A stretch of DNA of 12,807 nucleotides from Clostridia bacterium (GTDB lineage: Bacteria; Bacillota_E; RBS10-35; JAJYVN01). Below, piece after piece: positions 1 to 11,309 of the stretch (positions within the stretch are counted from its first letter, which is position 1; each line of letters opens with the position of its first letter). The notes beneath the pieces were generated by a model. The model saw only the letters and a list, made by a program, of their open reading frames with translations. It did no database searches and was not told the origin of the DNA. The translations under genes were made by a program, and so were the position numbers. The stretch covers positions 1 to 12,807 of the forward strand of contig DAHWHT010000369.1 of the NCBI GenBank assembly GCA_027335515.1, given 5' to 3'.

Positions 1-736
1 CCCGGGCCACCTCGGCGAGGGCGGCGACGCTCGGGGCGGCCGTGAAGCCGACCTGGCGGAAGTTGCTCTGATGCACCTTGAGCAGCAGAGCAACTTCCGC
101 ACCCGGCCGCGCCAGGGCCGCGGCATAGTCGCGGGCATAGGTGCGGTTGGTCGTACCGACCTCGACCAGGGTCGCACCGCTTTGCGCCAGGACCTCGGGA
201 ATGCGAAAGCTGCCACCGATCTCCACCAGTTCGCCGCGCGAGACCACCACCTCGCGCCCCGCGGCCAGTGCGGCCAGCAACAGCAGGACGGCGGCGGCGT
301 TGTTGTTCACGACCATCGCGGCCCCCGACCCGGTCAACTCCCCAAGGGCGGCCGCCACCAGAGCGTGGCGGTCGCCGCGCCGCCCGGCCGCAAGGTCGAA
401 CTCCAAGTTGCTGTAGCCGGCGGCCACGCGCGCGACCGCCTCCACGGCCCGCTCCGCCAGGGGGGCGCGGCCCAGTCCCGTGTGCAGCACAATGCCGGTG
501 GCATTGATCACGGCCCGCAGCCGCGGCAGGGACTCCTCCCGCAGGCGCTGCTCGATCCGGTCCAGGAGCGCCTCGGGATCCGGGACGCCGCCCGCGGCCG
601 CCGCCCGCGCCAAAGACAGCACCGCGGCAACGCTGCGGCGCACGACGGCGCGACCCAGGCGCGCCTGCCAGTCCACCAGCCGCGGATCCGCCAGCAGCAC
701 ATGCACCGGCGGCAGCCCGCGGCGGCCGTCCGTCAA
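1..736 (-). CDS. selA: L-seryl-tRNA(Sec) selenium transferase (selenocysteine synthase), 5' part, truncated by window edge
   Basis: PLP enzyme that converts seryl-tRNA(Sec) to selenocysteinyl-tRNA(Sec) using selenophosphate; cytoplasmic, and required for inserting Sec at UGA. About 245 N-terminal residues are visible. Seen in order: the N-terminal LPPVHVLLADP segment, INATGIVLHTGLGRAPLAE, YSNLEFDL, the VVNNNAAAVLLLLAAL block, VSRGELVEIGGSFRIPEV, EVGTTNRT and LLKVHQSNFRQVGF, all characteristic of SelA. The PLP-binding lysine would lie beyond the left edge. The start is taken as TTG at 736-734: it lies 21 bases after the lgt stop (TAG at 760-758), which is the in-frame upstream stop, and it gives the N-terminus usual for the family. 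A G-run directly abuts the TTG, so the ribosome binding site is unusually close and translation may be coupled to lgt. Its presence shows that the organism decodes UGA as Sec, which matters for the permease at 4747-5859. Confidence 0.96.
   Translation of the reverse strand, partial: MTDGRRGLPPVHVLLADPRLVDWQARLGRAVVRRSVAAVLSLARAAAAGGVPDPEALLDRIEQRLREESLPRLRAVINATGIVLHTGLGRAPLAERAVEAVARVAAGYSNLEFDLAAGRRGDRHALVAAALGELTGSGAAMVVNNNAAAVLLLLAALAAGREVVVSRGELVEIGGSFRIPEVLAQSGATLVEVGTTNRTYARDYAAALARPGAEVALLLKVHQSNFRQVGFTAAPSVAALAEVAR
56..100. repeat. 15-bp perfect inverted repeat inside selA
   Basis: GCGGAAGTTGCTCTG (56-70) and CAGAGCAACTTCCGC (86-100) are perfectly complementary, separated by 15 bases. 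On the minus strand it spans the selA codons around VALLLKVHQSNFR, so it would form a 15-bp hairpin in the selA mRNA. Confidence 0.9.
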
Positions 737-3875: not shown

Positions 3876-4706
3876 ATGCCCGACATCTGGTCCGACTGGT
3901 TGAACCGCACCCGCTTCACCGCGGCCACGACCGACGAGGCGCAGGCGGCCATGGCCTTCATCGCCGGCATCCGCCAGCGCCTGGTTTCGGCCGCCGCGCC
4001 CGCCCTCGGGCAGACCGTCCTCGAACTCGGCTGCGGCACCGGCGAGTTCCTGCCGGCCCTGCTCTCCGCCGTCGGCCCGCAGGGCTCCGTCCTGGCGCTG
4101 GACATCTCGGCGGAACTGCTGGCCCAGGCGCGGGCGGCGGTGGCATCCCACCCGCTGGCCCACCGGGTCCGCTGGCTGCACGCCGACATGGCGGACCTGC
4201 CGCTCGAAACGGCGGGGGTCGATGCGGTCGTCGCCCGCTCGGTGCTGCAGTATGCGGAAACGACGCTGCCGGCGGTGACCGCGGGGCTGGCGCGCGTGCT
4301 GCGGCCGGGCGGGCGGCTGGCCGCCTTCGAACTGCTGCACGGGGACGCGACGGCGCTTTCGACGGTCGAACCGACGGGGCCCATGGCCGCCGCGCTCGAC
4401 CGCTGGCGGCAGCTGCCCTTTGCCCTGCGGCGCGACGCACTGGAAGCCGCCCTGCCCCCCGCCCTGTTTTGCCCACTCGAGTTGGAAGCGCATACGACCA
4501 CCTGGCGTCAGGCGCCGGATCCCGCCGCCATCGAACGATCCCTGCAGGCCCTGCCAAGACCCGGATGCCCACCGCTCGGCGTGGTGTATGGCCCGGAGGC
4601 CGCCGAGCTCCTGCGTCGGGCCGACTGCGTGCAGGAATGCGGCGCCTGGTGCTTTGTGACCGCCACCCGCACCACCCACCCCGCGCCGCATGCGTATCCG
4701 GCATAG
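3876..4706 (+). CDS. Class I SAM-dependent methyltransferase, substrate unknown
   Basis: Predicted cytoplasmic S-adenosylmethionine methyltransferase of 276 residues. Seen: motif I VLELGCGTGEF (about residues 48-58), the acidic ALDIS (about 74-78) at the end of the second beta strand, HADMADLPL (102-110), DAVVARSVLQY (116-126) and the post-motif LRPGGRLAAFELL (142-154). The N-terminal IWSDWLNRTRF resembles a group of methyltransferases I know only as uncharacterised. The C-terminal third has five cysteines (199, 231, 251, 255, 259), the last three as CxxxCxxxC, which may bind a metal or metalloid; this is inference. ATG 3876 is supported by a run of seven G five bases upstream. It ends just before the promoter of the selenocysteine permease and is the only gene on the same strand beside it. 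It does not show the cysteine arrangement I would require to call an arsenite methyltransferase. Confidence 0.9.
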   Translation: MPDIWSDWLNRTRFTAATTDEAQAAMAFIAGIRQRLVSAAAPALGQTVLELGCGTGEFLPALLSAVGPQGSVLALDISAELLAQARAAVASHPLAHRVRWLHADMADLPLETAGVDAVVARSVLQYAETTLPAVTAGLARVLRPGGRLAAFELLHGDATALSTVEPTGPMAAALDRWRQLPFALRRDALEAALPPALFCPLELEAHTTTWRQAPDPAAIERSLQALPRPGCPPLGVVYGPEAAELLRRADCVQECGAWCFVTATRTTHPAPHAYPA

Positions 4707-4746: not shown

Positions 4747-5859
4747 ATGGTCCGCCAGCGGAAGGGTGTGTGTTGCTTGGCCCAAACGTCCGTGGTCCGC
4801 TCCGAGCCGCGGCCGGCGCGCGTGGCGTGGGGTATCGCCGCGTTCACCGCCATCGCCGTGGCCGGACTCTTCTACGTGAAGTGGGATCCGCTGTTCCACA
4901 AGAGCCTCGCCGCCGCCGCGCACCACACCCTGGGCGGCTCCATCGTGAGCGGCACCGTGGCCGCGGCCCCGCAGCCCTCGCTCGCGGCCGCCTGGCTGTA
5001 CACCCGCACCTACGTCGGGGATGTCTGGCAGGCCATGGTCCTGGGCCTGCTGCTGGGGGCCGGCGTCCAGGCGCTGATCCCGGGCGACTGGCTGCGCCGG
5101 GTGCTGGGCCGTACCGGCCTTGGCTCGGTTGCCCTGGCGGGACTCGCCGCGACGCCGTCCATGATGTGAACGTGTTGCAGCGCCCCACTGGCAGTGGGGC
5201 TCGGGGCCCGACGCGTCGCACCCGGAGCCGCGATCGCCTACTGGCTGGGCAACCCGGTGCTGAATCCGGCCACCATTGTGTTCATCGGCTTCGTGCTCGG
5301 TTGGCGCTGGGCCCTGGTGCGGATCGTTGCCGGCGTCGCCCTGGTCCTGGGCGCCGGCTGGCTCGTCAACCGCTTTGCGGGCGACGACGCCGGGGCGGCC
5401 GCCGCCCTGGGCGCCTCGGAGCCGGCAGAGCCTCCCGACAACGACGTCTGGCGGCGCTGGCTGCGCAGCCTCGCCAAGCTGGCCTTGGGTGTCGTGCCGG
5501 AGTGGATCGTCATCGTGTTGCTGCTTGGGTTTGCGCGCGCCTGGTTGTTTCCGGCCATGACGCCGGCCATCGGGGCCGCGCTCTGGCTGCTGCCGGCCTT
5601 TGCGCTGGCTGGAACCCTCTTTGTGATCCCCACGGCGGGCGAGGTGCCGATCCTGCAGGTGCTGTCCCGCTATGGTCTGGGCGGCGGCAGCTTCGGCGTT
5701 CTGCTCCTGGCGCTGCCGGCCATCAGCCTGCCCTCCATGCTGATGGTGGGCCGCCGGCGGACGATCCCACCGCGGCTGGTCGCCCTGACCGGCGCCGCGG
5801 TGGCCGTGGCCGCCCTCGCGGTCGGCGTCGCCGCCCTGGCCCTGGGCATCGCGCCCTGA
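4747..5859 (+). CDS. Selenocysteine-containing permease of the DUF318/UPF0718 (ArsP-like) family; in-frame TGA at 5167 read as Sec141
   Basis: Polytopic inner-membrane permease of 370 residues, about nine hydrophobic segments (roughly 26-44, 93-112, 126-151, 161-185, 189-207, 246-266, 273-294, 314-334, 344-368). Before the TGA the frame reads LAATPSMM; after it TCCSAPLAVGL, then YWLGNPVLNPATIVFIGFVLG, the standard continuation of the family. Cysteine relatives have C-T-C-C at this point, so UGA replaces the first Cys: Sec141, Cys143, Cys144 inside a membrane segment. The SECIS-like hairpin at 5170-5216 and selA in the same window support recoding. Family members include ArsP, an organoarsenical exporter; the substrate here is unknown. 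The start could be ATG 4747 (GGGGG 2 bases upstream), GTG 4768 or TTG 4777 (GGAAGGG at 4760-4766, ten bases before). Gene callers would report 4690/4747-5169 and 5194-5859 as two genes. A true frameshift-free nonsense pseudogene is the alternative. Confidence 0.9.
5167..5169 (+). other. Recoded UGA codon (selenocysteine)
   Basis: This is the only in-frame stop between the permease start and its real terminator TGA at 5857-5859. It is preceded by two ATG codons and followed by ACG TGT TGC, giving Met-Met-Sec-Thr-Cys-Cys where the family has Cys-Thr-Cys-Cys. One base change from TGC or TGT to TGA accounts for the difference. Confidence 0.87.
5170..5216 (+). promoter_or_regulatory. Bacterial-type SECIS element
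   Basis: Directly behind the UGA, GCCCCACT (5182-5189) pairs perfectly with AGTGGGGC (5193-5200) to form an 8-bp stem with the loop GGC (5190-5192). A lower stem ACGTGT (5170-5175) with ACGCGT (5211-5216) can close it, with one G-U pair. The first loop G is 21 bases after the UGA, closely matching E. coli fdhF, where the GG of the SelB-binding loop sits at about the same distance. A bulged U like that of fdhF is not obvious. Assignment is by eye, without energy calculation. Confidence 0.8.
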
Positions 5860-8992: not shown

Positions 8993-9769
8993 TCAGGAAC
9001 GCAATTCCATCCGCAGCTTGTCCGCGACCATCGCGACGAACTCGGAATTGGTCGGCTTGCCCCGATCCGAGTTCACGGTGTGCCCGAAGAGGCTGTGGAT
9101 GAGATCGACGTTGCCCCGGCTCCACGCGACCTCAATGGCGTGGCGGATCGCCCGCTCCACCCGGCTGGGGGTCGTTTGAAAGCGCTTGGCGATGGTGGGA
9201 TAGAGCTCCTTTGTGACGCCGCCCAGGAGTTCCACCCGCTGGACCACAAGGCAGATGGCCTCACGCAGATAGAGATAGCCTTTGATGTGGGCGGGAATAC
9301 CGATCTCGTGCAGGACCTCGGTCACCTCGAATTCGAGGCTGCGCGCCTCCCCCTGTGGTCGCTTCACCGTCTGGCCGCTGGCGATCTGGCGGATGCGCTT
9401 GGCCAGCACCGCCAGGTCGAACGGTTTGAGGATGTAATAGTCGGCACCCAGAGAAACCACGCGCTGGGCGATGTTCTCCTGGCCGAAGGCCGTCAGCATG
9501 ATCACGCGCGGCCGATGCGGCAATCCGAGTGCGTTCAACTGCTCCAACACACCGATGCCGTCCAGGTGTGGCATGATAATATCCAGAATCAGCACGTCCG
9601 GGCTCTCGCTTTCCACAAGCTCCAGAACCTGACGCCCGTTTTGTGCCACGCCCACCAGCTTGAAGTCGCTCTGGCTCTGAATGAACTGAGCGAGGAGGTC
9701 GCAGAACTCGCGATTGTCGTCCGCCACCAGAATCCGGTATGGGACCACTGCTTCGGCGCTGACGGCCAA
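8993..9769 (-). CDS. spo0A: Stage 0 sporulation protein A, response regulator
   Basis: Master transcription regulator of sporulation entry, activated by phosphorylation through kinases or the phosphorelay. 258 residues, the usual length. The receiver domain has the acidic pair Asp17/Asp18 (VADDN), the phosphoacceptor Asp63 ([12 protein letters not shown]), Thr93 (MLTAFG) and Lys115 (ILKPFD). The effector domain is nearly textbook: [49 protein letters not shown] with the recognition helix, and [16 protein letters not shown] at the C-terminus. Start is TTG 9769: GAGGTGG lies 5 bases upstream. The open frame extends to 10045, but that stretch overlaps spoIVB and is not Spo0A-like. A sigma-H-like promoter lies at 9846-9874. 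Located after spoIVB in the classic order. Confidence 0.98.
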
Positions 9770-9845
9770 ACTGTCCACCTCTTCCGACGATCGACCGGTC
9801 GGTGCACCGCCTCGGCCGCGGGGTGCGGTGCCGGCCGCACGCCTT

Positions 9846-9917: not shown

Positions 9918-11291
9918 TCAGGACGCGCCAAGCGCCGTCGGCGATAGCAGGCCCGCCATCGACGCCATCCAACAGGCGCAAACGCCGTAGCCACGCGCCG
10001 GATCATCCACAAACACGTGGGTGACCGCCCCGACCAGGCGCCCATCCTGCAGGATGGGACTGCCGCTCATGCCCTGAACGATACCACCGCTTTCGGCAAG
10101 CAGTCGCGGATCCACCACCCGGACCACAAAGCCGCGGCTGGTCATCCGCCGCTGCGGCAGGACCGCGGTGATGTCGACCTGATAGGCACGGACGCGCTGC
10201 CCGTCGATCACCGTCAGCAACTGGGCGCCGCCCCGGTGAATCTGGTCGACCAGCGCCAGCGGCCACGTGCCCGCCACCAGCCCGGCGACCGGCGGTGTGG
10301 TGAGCCGCCCGAACACCCCCACCGGGGTGTTGGACCGCACGCTGCCCATCGGCCGCCCCCCGGGTGCCAGCTGCCCCACCTTCTCGCCCGGCCGCCCCGG
10401 CCGCCCTGGCACCAAACCCGAAACCACCGTCGGCCACAGCGTTCCCGGCGCCGCCAGCTGGGGCGTCCGCCCGGCCGTATTGACGACCGGATGCCCCAGG
10501 GCCCCGTACAGACCCGTCGGCGACTGGTAGAAGGTCAGGGTACCGACACCGGCCGCTCCGTCCCGCACCAGCCAGGCACCGATCCGATAGCGACCGCCCG
10601 CCGACCGCACCGGCCTCACCCGCACCCGCTGTGTCCGCCCGCGGCGCAGGACGACCAGCCCGAGCGACCGCCCCGCAAGCCCGGCCGCCTGGACGGCGCG
10701 CGCCACCGCCTGCGGGCTGTGGACCGCGCGGCCGCCCGCCGTCAGGACGATATCCCCCGCCTCCAGGTCCGCTCTGGAGGCCGGCGCGGCGCTGGCCCCA
10801 CCGGCCTGCGAAACCGGAACCGTCCGCACCACGAGCGGGCCGTCGCCGTGCAACACCACGCCGATCGACTGCCCGCCGGTCCACACCAGGGGAACCCGCA
10901 CCGCGCGCAACCGCACCGGCCGCCACGGCACCAACCCAAAAAGCCGCAGTTGCAGGGTGGTGACCCCCGCGCGCTGCGGCTCCAACCACAACCCTGCGGC
11001 CGGAACCTGGCGCCACCGCGTGGCCGGCGCTCCGTCCACCCGCAGCCATTGGGCCCCCGGGCCGATGACGCGCACCGCCACCATCCCCGGCAGGCCCAGA
11101 TCCAGCCGTTGCCGCTGCCCGACCGCCACCTGCACCGCACCCGGCAGGCGCAGGGCCGCGCGGGCCTCCGGGGCCCTGCCGGCGAGGACCACGGCAGCGG
11201 CAAGCACCGCCCCGAACCAGCGTGCCATCCGTCCCCGCAGCTTGCCCCGCCTCCACCCCGGGAGGCGCACCCGCCGTCCCACCACCACCAT
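9918..11291 (-). CDS. spoIVB: SpoIVB serine peptidase (S55 family)
   Basis: Forespore-made protease exported to the intermembrane space, where it cleaves SpoIVFA and so triggers processing of pro-sigma-K by SpoIVFB. About 457 residues. Seen: a short basic N-terminus and membrane anchor or signal ([15 protein letters not shown], about 25-39), a PDZ domain (about 157-227, with [19 protein letters not shown]), then the S55 peptidase domain with YGALGHPV (His267), VVDPRLL (Asp394) and [25 protein letters not shown] (Ser409), followed by DDPARGYGV. These are the expected catalytic positions. Start is ATG 11291, with GTG 11297 and 11300 as in-frame alternatives; GGGGG at 11303-11307 serves any of them. 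It starts within 20 bases of the DUF5317 stop, and 148 bases separate it from spo0A. Confidence 0.96.
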
Positions 11292-11309
11292 CCCCACCAC
11301 GGCCCCCGG

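Follow-up and report, generated by a model that had tools for sequence, protein, structure and literature searches.

The window analysed here, a stretch of 12,807 nucleotides from a Clostridia bacterium, contains the gene of a predicted permease whose reading frame is crossed by a single TGA codon. We propose that this gene belongs to a distinct ArsP_1 subfamily with a UGA decoded as selenocysteine (Sec), and that the subfamily is part of selenium metabolism, most likely moving a selenium species; taking the evidence together, we consider this proposal probable. Sequence comparisons establish four features: an exchange of Sec and Cys at one site, a conserved hairpin, Sec machinery in relatives, and a linkage to selenium (sel) genes. 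The elements of the window concerned are the following.

2..736, minus strand: selA, incomplete at the window edge, for L-seryl-tRNA(Sec) selenium transferase (PF03841; TIGR00474 at 298.4 bits, cut-off 267.9)
3876..4706, plus strand: SAM-dependent methyltransferase, 5' of the permease (PF13649, 78 bits)
4768..5859, plus strand: predicted Sec-containing ArsP_1 permease, about 360 aa (PF03773, 73.3 bits)
5167..5169, plus strand: in-frame TGA interpreted as a Sec codon, in the place of the leading Cys of a C-x-C motif common to other ArsP_1 paralogues
5170..5178, plus strand: Thr-Cys-Cys after the Sec (U-T-C-C motif)
5182..5200, plus strand: bSECIS-like hairpin, an 8-bp stem pairing 5182-5189 with 5193-5200 around the apical loop GGC (5190-5192)

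In the plus-strand frame 4747-5859, the TGA at 5167-5169 is the sole in-frame stop ahead of the terminal TGA at 5857-5859. The preliminary description of this DNA had reported such an otherwise intact frame, correctly, but had opened it at ATG 4747, a start that comparison does not favour. The frame of the nearest relative, locus L001, opens 27 nt 5' of the GTG matching 4768, with no in-frame start further upstream, and in locus L114 the first possible start lies 130 codons ahead of the TGA, the same distance as TTG 4777 in the window; because of these positions, translation probably begins at GTG 4768 or TTG 4777 rather than at ATG 4747. Similarity to the permease family had been said to run through the TGA, and the joined frame indeed exceeds the PF03773 (ArsP_1) cut-off (73.3 versus 32.3 bits), with its best stretch at residues 92-361. 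Of 7997 candidates scored, 2247 are relatives of the joined product at E 0.001 or better. An AlphaFold model of the permease has a mean pLDDT of 91.3; the best match of a PDB sequence search was no better than E 0.02, and Foldseek gave no match at E 0.001.

The interrupted codon falls on a conserved cysteine. In an alignment of 32 rows (29 span residue 141, in the numbering of the preliminary description, and three begin after the site), residues 141, 143 and 144 are near-invariant Cys within M-M-C-T-C-C. We scanned one genome per species and took the best 80 of 542 loci: the codon at residue 141 is TGC in 73, TGT in five and TGA in two, namely L001, from a Bacillota MAG (89% identical), and L075, from a Rokubacterial MAG (about 52%). 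The preliminary description had proposed a Sec/Cys pair at a conserved Cys, to be sought in homologues with Cys at this residue and in further UGA-bearing homologues. Both were found (Cys in 78 of these 80 loci, TGA in two), together with Sec machinery in L001's genome, and the proposed pair is supported.

Wider surveys returned more such genes. Homologues occur in seven of 13 genomes in the order of L001's genome (eight homologues, five with and three without TGA), in 13 of 398 genomes of its phylum, with TGA in L001's alone, and in four of 95 genomes of the phylum of L075's genome, which we take to be Methylomirabilota, where 4/4 have one TGA. The TGAs of all these homologues lie at residue 141, the second stop of L120 (residue 369) being the gene end. 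After duplicate removal, 10 distinct UGA loci including the window are present in two phyla: six belong to Bacillota (the window, L001, L114, L116, L119 and L120), and the other four (L075, L122, L123 and L124) to the phylum of L075. L119 runs past its contig end and the match of L124 stops at residue 303; refetched loci bear paired labels (L116/L125, L119/L127, L120/L126, L122/L128, L123/L129 and L124/L130). A search with N-terminal halves as query, in which full-length relatives were left out by length, gave 347 shortened proteins, of which the best 120, including the window's own half and L001's, all (120/120) end in M-M, at the codon before the site; their source names include Candidatus Rokubacteria and Candidatus Sulfotelmatobacter records.

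Purifying selection operates on both sides of the TGA: between the window and L001, dN/dS is 0.13 before it and 0.14 after. Given that the same codon recurs in 10 loci and that all 120 listed halves stop there, and given these dN/dS values, the in-frame TGA is evidently more than chance. Third-base conservation after the TGA in the same pair (12/13 versus 226/348, p 0.07) is suggestive at most.

Twelve nucleotides 3' of the TGA stands the hairpin sequence GCCCCACU-GGC-AGUGGGGC. All eight stem pairs form in each of the 10 distinct UGA sequences (80/80 cells paired), and the complete hairpin occurs in none of 93 Cys rows, some of which are one gene fetched twice; the best Cys row, L009, attains 7 of 8 pairs. 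A single stem pair is swapped: it is C-G in six UGA sequences, and all four sequences from the phylum of L075 have G-C. The swap matches a protein change, Leu-Ala-Val versus Val-Ala-Leu. Sliding the partner by 1-3 columns reduces stem pairing to 34-63%. Only 4 of 500 shuffles reach the paired percentage and covariation score of the hairpin; 469 of 500 reach its covarying-pair count, which is one. The encoded amino acids are in themselves favourable to the stem: when the codons of the window's peptide were exchanged at random for synonymous ones, 3.9% of the sequences gave 8/8 pairs. The single-sequence fold of the region is unremarkable (z -0.6 to -1.0, with -1.04 for 49 nt, and +0.44 for a longer piece). 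Its position, and the guanine with which the apical loop begins, are presumably in line with bacterial SECIS rules, and the hairpin, coming directly after the UGA, may aid Sec decoding. Two Rfam microRNA matches in the window scored far under their gathering scores and were taken as chance.

Gene callers break the permease frame at the UGA and call C-terminal halves from a GTG 3' of it, as an ordinary stop would have it, whether through a pseudogene, a sequencing error or the production of each half as a protein of its own. We judge an ordinary stop very improbable: the split falls within a near-invariant motif, at one and the same codon in all the distinct loci and the listed shortened proteins, with low dN/dS on either side, and the complete hairpin is confined to TGA forms. 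For a pseudogene or a sequencing error, recurrence, hairpin and selection rule the explanation out.

UGA at codon 141 is, on the comparisons above, almost certainly decoded as Sec, and the decoding would be carried out by SelA, SelB and tRNA-Sec. The selA gene that had been recognised in the window is real, though truncated by the edge. The other genes to which the preliminary description had tied Sec decoding, selB, selC and selD, are found in the genome of L001: selB at 323.9 bits (cut-off 242.25), selD, and a tRNA-Sec with anticodon TCA on contig C47, the contig that also holds the permease. That genome bin has two tRNA-Sec genes (L089 and L090), which may be two copies or reflect a mixed bin. 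A changed code that gives UGA a different meaning, for instance Cys or Trp, is barely conceivable, since the permease itself terminates in TGA (5857), tRNA-Sec accompanies it on L001's contig and a hairpin lies where a SECIS is expected.

L075's genome likewise has selB (374.4 bits), and so do 15 of 17 Cys-permease carriers checked (E 1e-60 or better), so that having the machinery does not in itself decide between Cys and Sec. The presence of selD is weakly tied to that of the permease (13/13 versus 260/398, p 0.0035; 6/7 versus 90/120, p 0.44). As to the host, the window also encodes Spo0A (8993-9787, minus strand, 386.4 bits) and SpoIVB (9918-11300, minus strand, 319.5 bits), which suggests a spore-forming member of the Bacillota.

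The distribution of Sec and Cys forms was placed on a quick tree of 70 rows, for which Burkholderia-type rows were thinned (104 to 67 rows), nine proteins were added, and both the four outgroups and two long rows, L111 and L113, were left out. A single clade of the 10 UGA rows is rejected on this tree (p-AU 0.0003), and its starred branches force at least three changes; in a first tree, with the outgroups in and the nine added proteins absent, starred branches forced one change only. The window and L001 group with two Cys rows in a four-row set (support 100 in the 70-row tree). Closest to them by path come two Cys proteins, P0002 and P0004, the latter flagged as long and odd in composition. 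Our reading of the tree is one of repeated Sec/Cys exchange, or of gene transfer between lineages.

For the Sec/Cys cluster, the preliminary description had suggested the binding or reduction of a soft metal(loid) substrate; gene context points to selenium, as far as gene order can indicate. Among the best 80 of 542 loci, 53 (52 Cys and one Sec) have selA, selB, selD or selU within 1.5 kb of the permease. Most of these (43 of 53) are from Burkholderia, Paraburkholderia or Caballeronia, in which 43 of 52 loci are linked; elsewhere it is 10 of 28. Five further loci of the 80 have a LysR gene alone within 1.5 kb, and 27, some on short contigs, lack any sel gene within 3 kb. As a control, we took 29 loci of other ArsP_1 members, most with a 1.5-kb flank per side (22 plus one weak match from 120 Burkholderiales genomes, and six from genomes that hold the subfamily): none has a sel gene in the DNA covered (53/80 versus 0/29, Fisher p 3.6e-11, uncorrected for kinship). 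The linkage is not universal: of the 12 other homologues in L001's phylum, two of them from genomes already among the 80, one (L105) has a sel gene in its short flank and four (L102, L103, L104 and L111) have a LysR gene nearby; of seven family members in Burkholderiales, two have a sel gene nearby, one being L006's own gene.

The gene most often found next to the permease in Burkholderia and related genera is selU/mnmH, for tRNA 2-selenouridine synthase, which in Burkholderia L006 (NF008752, 566.2 bits) meets the permease start. The Cys permeases of L009, L015, L020 and L026 adjoin selD, and those of L043, L044, L047 and L068 stand beside selA, selB, tRNA-Sec and selD. LysR genes beside L003, L014 and the UGA locus L114 have as best match NF040786, the selenium metabolism-associated LysR, at 211.4, 142.7 and 188.5 bits, all under the cut-off of 250; the other two of five such genes scanned, in L006 and L068, have a different best match.

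Among the 10 UGA loci, the DNA examined includes a sel gene in six. In the window and L001, selA is 4.0-4.2 kb from the permease; in L116/L125, L075, L123/L129 and L124/L130, selD lies 0.2-0.35 kb away, upstream by about 160-200 nt in L075, L129 and L130. The UGA permease of L125 has selD (317.6 bits), selB (365.3 bits), selA (530.9 bits) and tRNA-Sec all within about 7 kb. Three loci (L114, L119/L127 and L120/L126), whose flanks are short or one-sided, have an adjacent LysR gene alone, and L122/L128 has neither a sel gene nor LysR nearby. Judged by these neighbourhoods, the link between the subfamily and sel genes extends over Bacillota, Proteobacteria and Rokubacteria.

Some further neighbours of UGA permeases deserve mention. 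A family 4 glycosyltransferase occurs near the permease in both phyla (L125:5333-6361, minus strand; L075:14455-15594, plus strand), with similar ORFs in L126, L127, L129 and L130; the best match of the L125 and L075 proteins is NF038229 and the second TIGR04348, the SenB selenosugar synthase, both below cut-off. A cytochrome-like protein 3' of the UGA permease in L075 (11941-13173, plus strand) weakly resembles the ExtKL multiheme (seleno)protein (59.7 bits, cut-off 250).

The permease might instead be a Sec-containing exporter of an organoarsenical or another soft metal(loid), its nearness to sel genes reflecting a need for selenium or joint travel with a selenium island. Membership of ArsP_1 speaks for this: relatives are described as organoarsenical exporters in the portions of two papers available to us (PMC4435449, PMC7176098), the first of which also reports a conserved C(S/T)C motif in the membrane domain of ArsP. 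So does the SAM methyltransferase gene directly 5' of the permease in the window (3876-4706), which ends about 60-70 nt ahead of the likely permease start and would be co-transcribed with it. That methyltransferase, however, reaches only 53.2 bits against the arsenite methyltransferase model NF008823 (cut-off 263); the NCBIfam matches shown for it, all sub-cut-off, include arsenite methyltransferase selenoprotein models; and among 27 other loci compared, L001 alone has it beside the permease. Moreover, all but one of the 53 linked loci encode Cys forms, themselves without a need for selenium, and the linkage is absent from the control loci of other ArsP_1 paralogues. We therefore regard metal(loid) export as possible, though unlikely.

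Formate metabolism offers another route to the same linkage: the subfamily would transport formate or a related compound for formate dehydrogenase, and sel genes would be nearby on account of that selenoenzyme. The island of L043, in which selA, selB, tRNA-Sec and selD accompany the Cys permease, contains formate dehydrogenase genes by model, FdhE and the beta and alpha subunits flanking the permease, and the islands of L044, L047 and L068 contain them by likeness of gene starts. Yet the neighbour in Burkholderia and kin, selU, is a tRNA enzyme; no fdh gene was recognised in the gene listings of L075 and L125, some of whose entries were scanned by model; and a Cys/Sec cluster would have no evident use for formate. 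Such a role seems improbable.

We accordingly return to selenium, which would be the substrate of the permease, and whose supply the linkage to selD and selU fits, at least by gene context. In the mechanism we envisage, the permease would carry a selenium species across the membrane, as an exporter or an importer. The Sec or Cys of U/C-T-C-C, located where a membrane helix is broken, would be the ligand, binding the substrate as a soft donor or passing on a selenosulfide; in the window and L001, the methyltransferase could supply a methylated substrate. As Sec is needed for completion, the full-length protein would be made only under sufficient selenium, a dependence more easily reconciled with export of surplus selenium than with import under starvation. 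This argument is a weak one, because SelD itself often has an in-frame TGA (in most of the matches listed). More tentatively, the subfamily could be a dedicated selenium transporter for both the selenocysteine and the selenouridine pathways; in several lineages it would have turned into a selenoprotein, its Sec forms sensing selenium supply through UGA decoding in a built-in feedback. We consider this somewhat less likely than not. If true, the subfamily would be the dedicated selenium transporter so far missing from the field. The occurrence of both Cys and Sec at the same site, along with sel linkage, makes it a selenium-transporter candidate that can be tested by deletion in culturable hosts, and it adds a recurrent selenoprotein currently split at UGA by gene callers. 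In a separate system, the available part of a study of Methanococcus maripaludis lists MMJJ_00180, a 'putative permease', as up 3.1 log2 on selenium depletion (PMC11097638, Table 1).

What precedes this in the literature concerns a related family. In the part accessible to us, a 2026 review lists, from genome annotation, a Sec form of the SO_0444 family with the motif UxC (PMC13188914); Sec in the ArsP_1 superfamily is therefore not new. What seems new is the Sec form of the present subfamily and its link to selenium: neither was found in the literature covered, whose partial coverage makes a prior mention possible. Within the same partial coverage, 'selenoprotein' was not found together with YraQ, UPF0718 or PF03773. 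The main text of that review has no ArsP, DUF318, YraQ, UPF0718 or PF03773, and PMC12013277 has no PF03773; PMC11922444 and PMC10143001 contain both 'selenoprotein' and 'ArsP'. The genes reported near sel genes in a study of 2015 were YedE, YedF, a LysR and DUF3343, and the text available has no 'permease' (PMC5322559).

Four known systems bear comparison. SO_0444 (NF033936), a Cu/Zn efflux family by model name, is related in sequence to the window protein, and its UxC fits the U-T-C of the window; the window protein nevertheless lies outside that family (50.2 bits, cut-off 300). Since four other ArsP_1 paralogues align C-x-C-G with U-T-C-C, placing C-E-C or C-A-C opposite U-T-C at residues 141-143, the Sec of SO_0444 is probably at the same site as that of the window. 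With ArsP (PF03773; TC 2.A.119), the window protein shares a score over the Pfam cut-off and a membrane segment bearing the C(S/T)C motif, but it differs in having Sec for the first Cys, selenium genes as neighbours and 73.3 bits to PF03773, as against 212-259 bits in many other paralogues. Its likeness to the SaoE efflux transporter (NF040736), part of the selenocysteine-assisted organometal system, is distant (39.6 bits, under the cut-off of 325). YedE is a proposed selenium-related transporter (TIGR04112) whose gene often adjoins selD and other selenium genes, according to the available part of its description (PMC5322559). Neither TIGR04112 nor PF04143 is among the Pfam and NCBIfam models that the window protein matches at E 0.001, but its family resembles YedE in being one of membrane proteins with selenium genes as neighbours.
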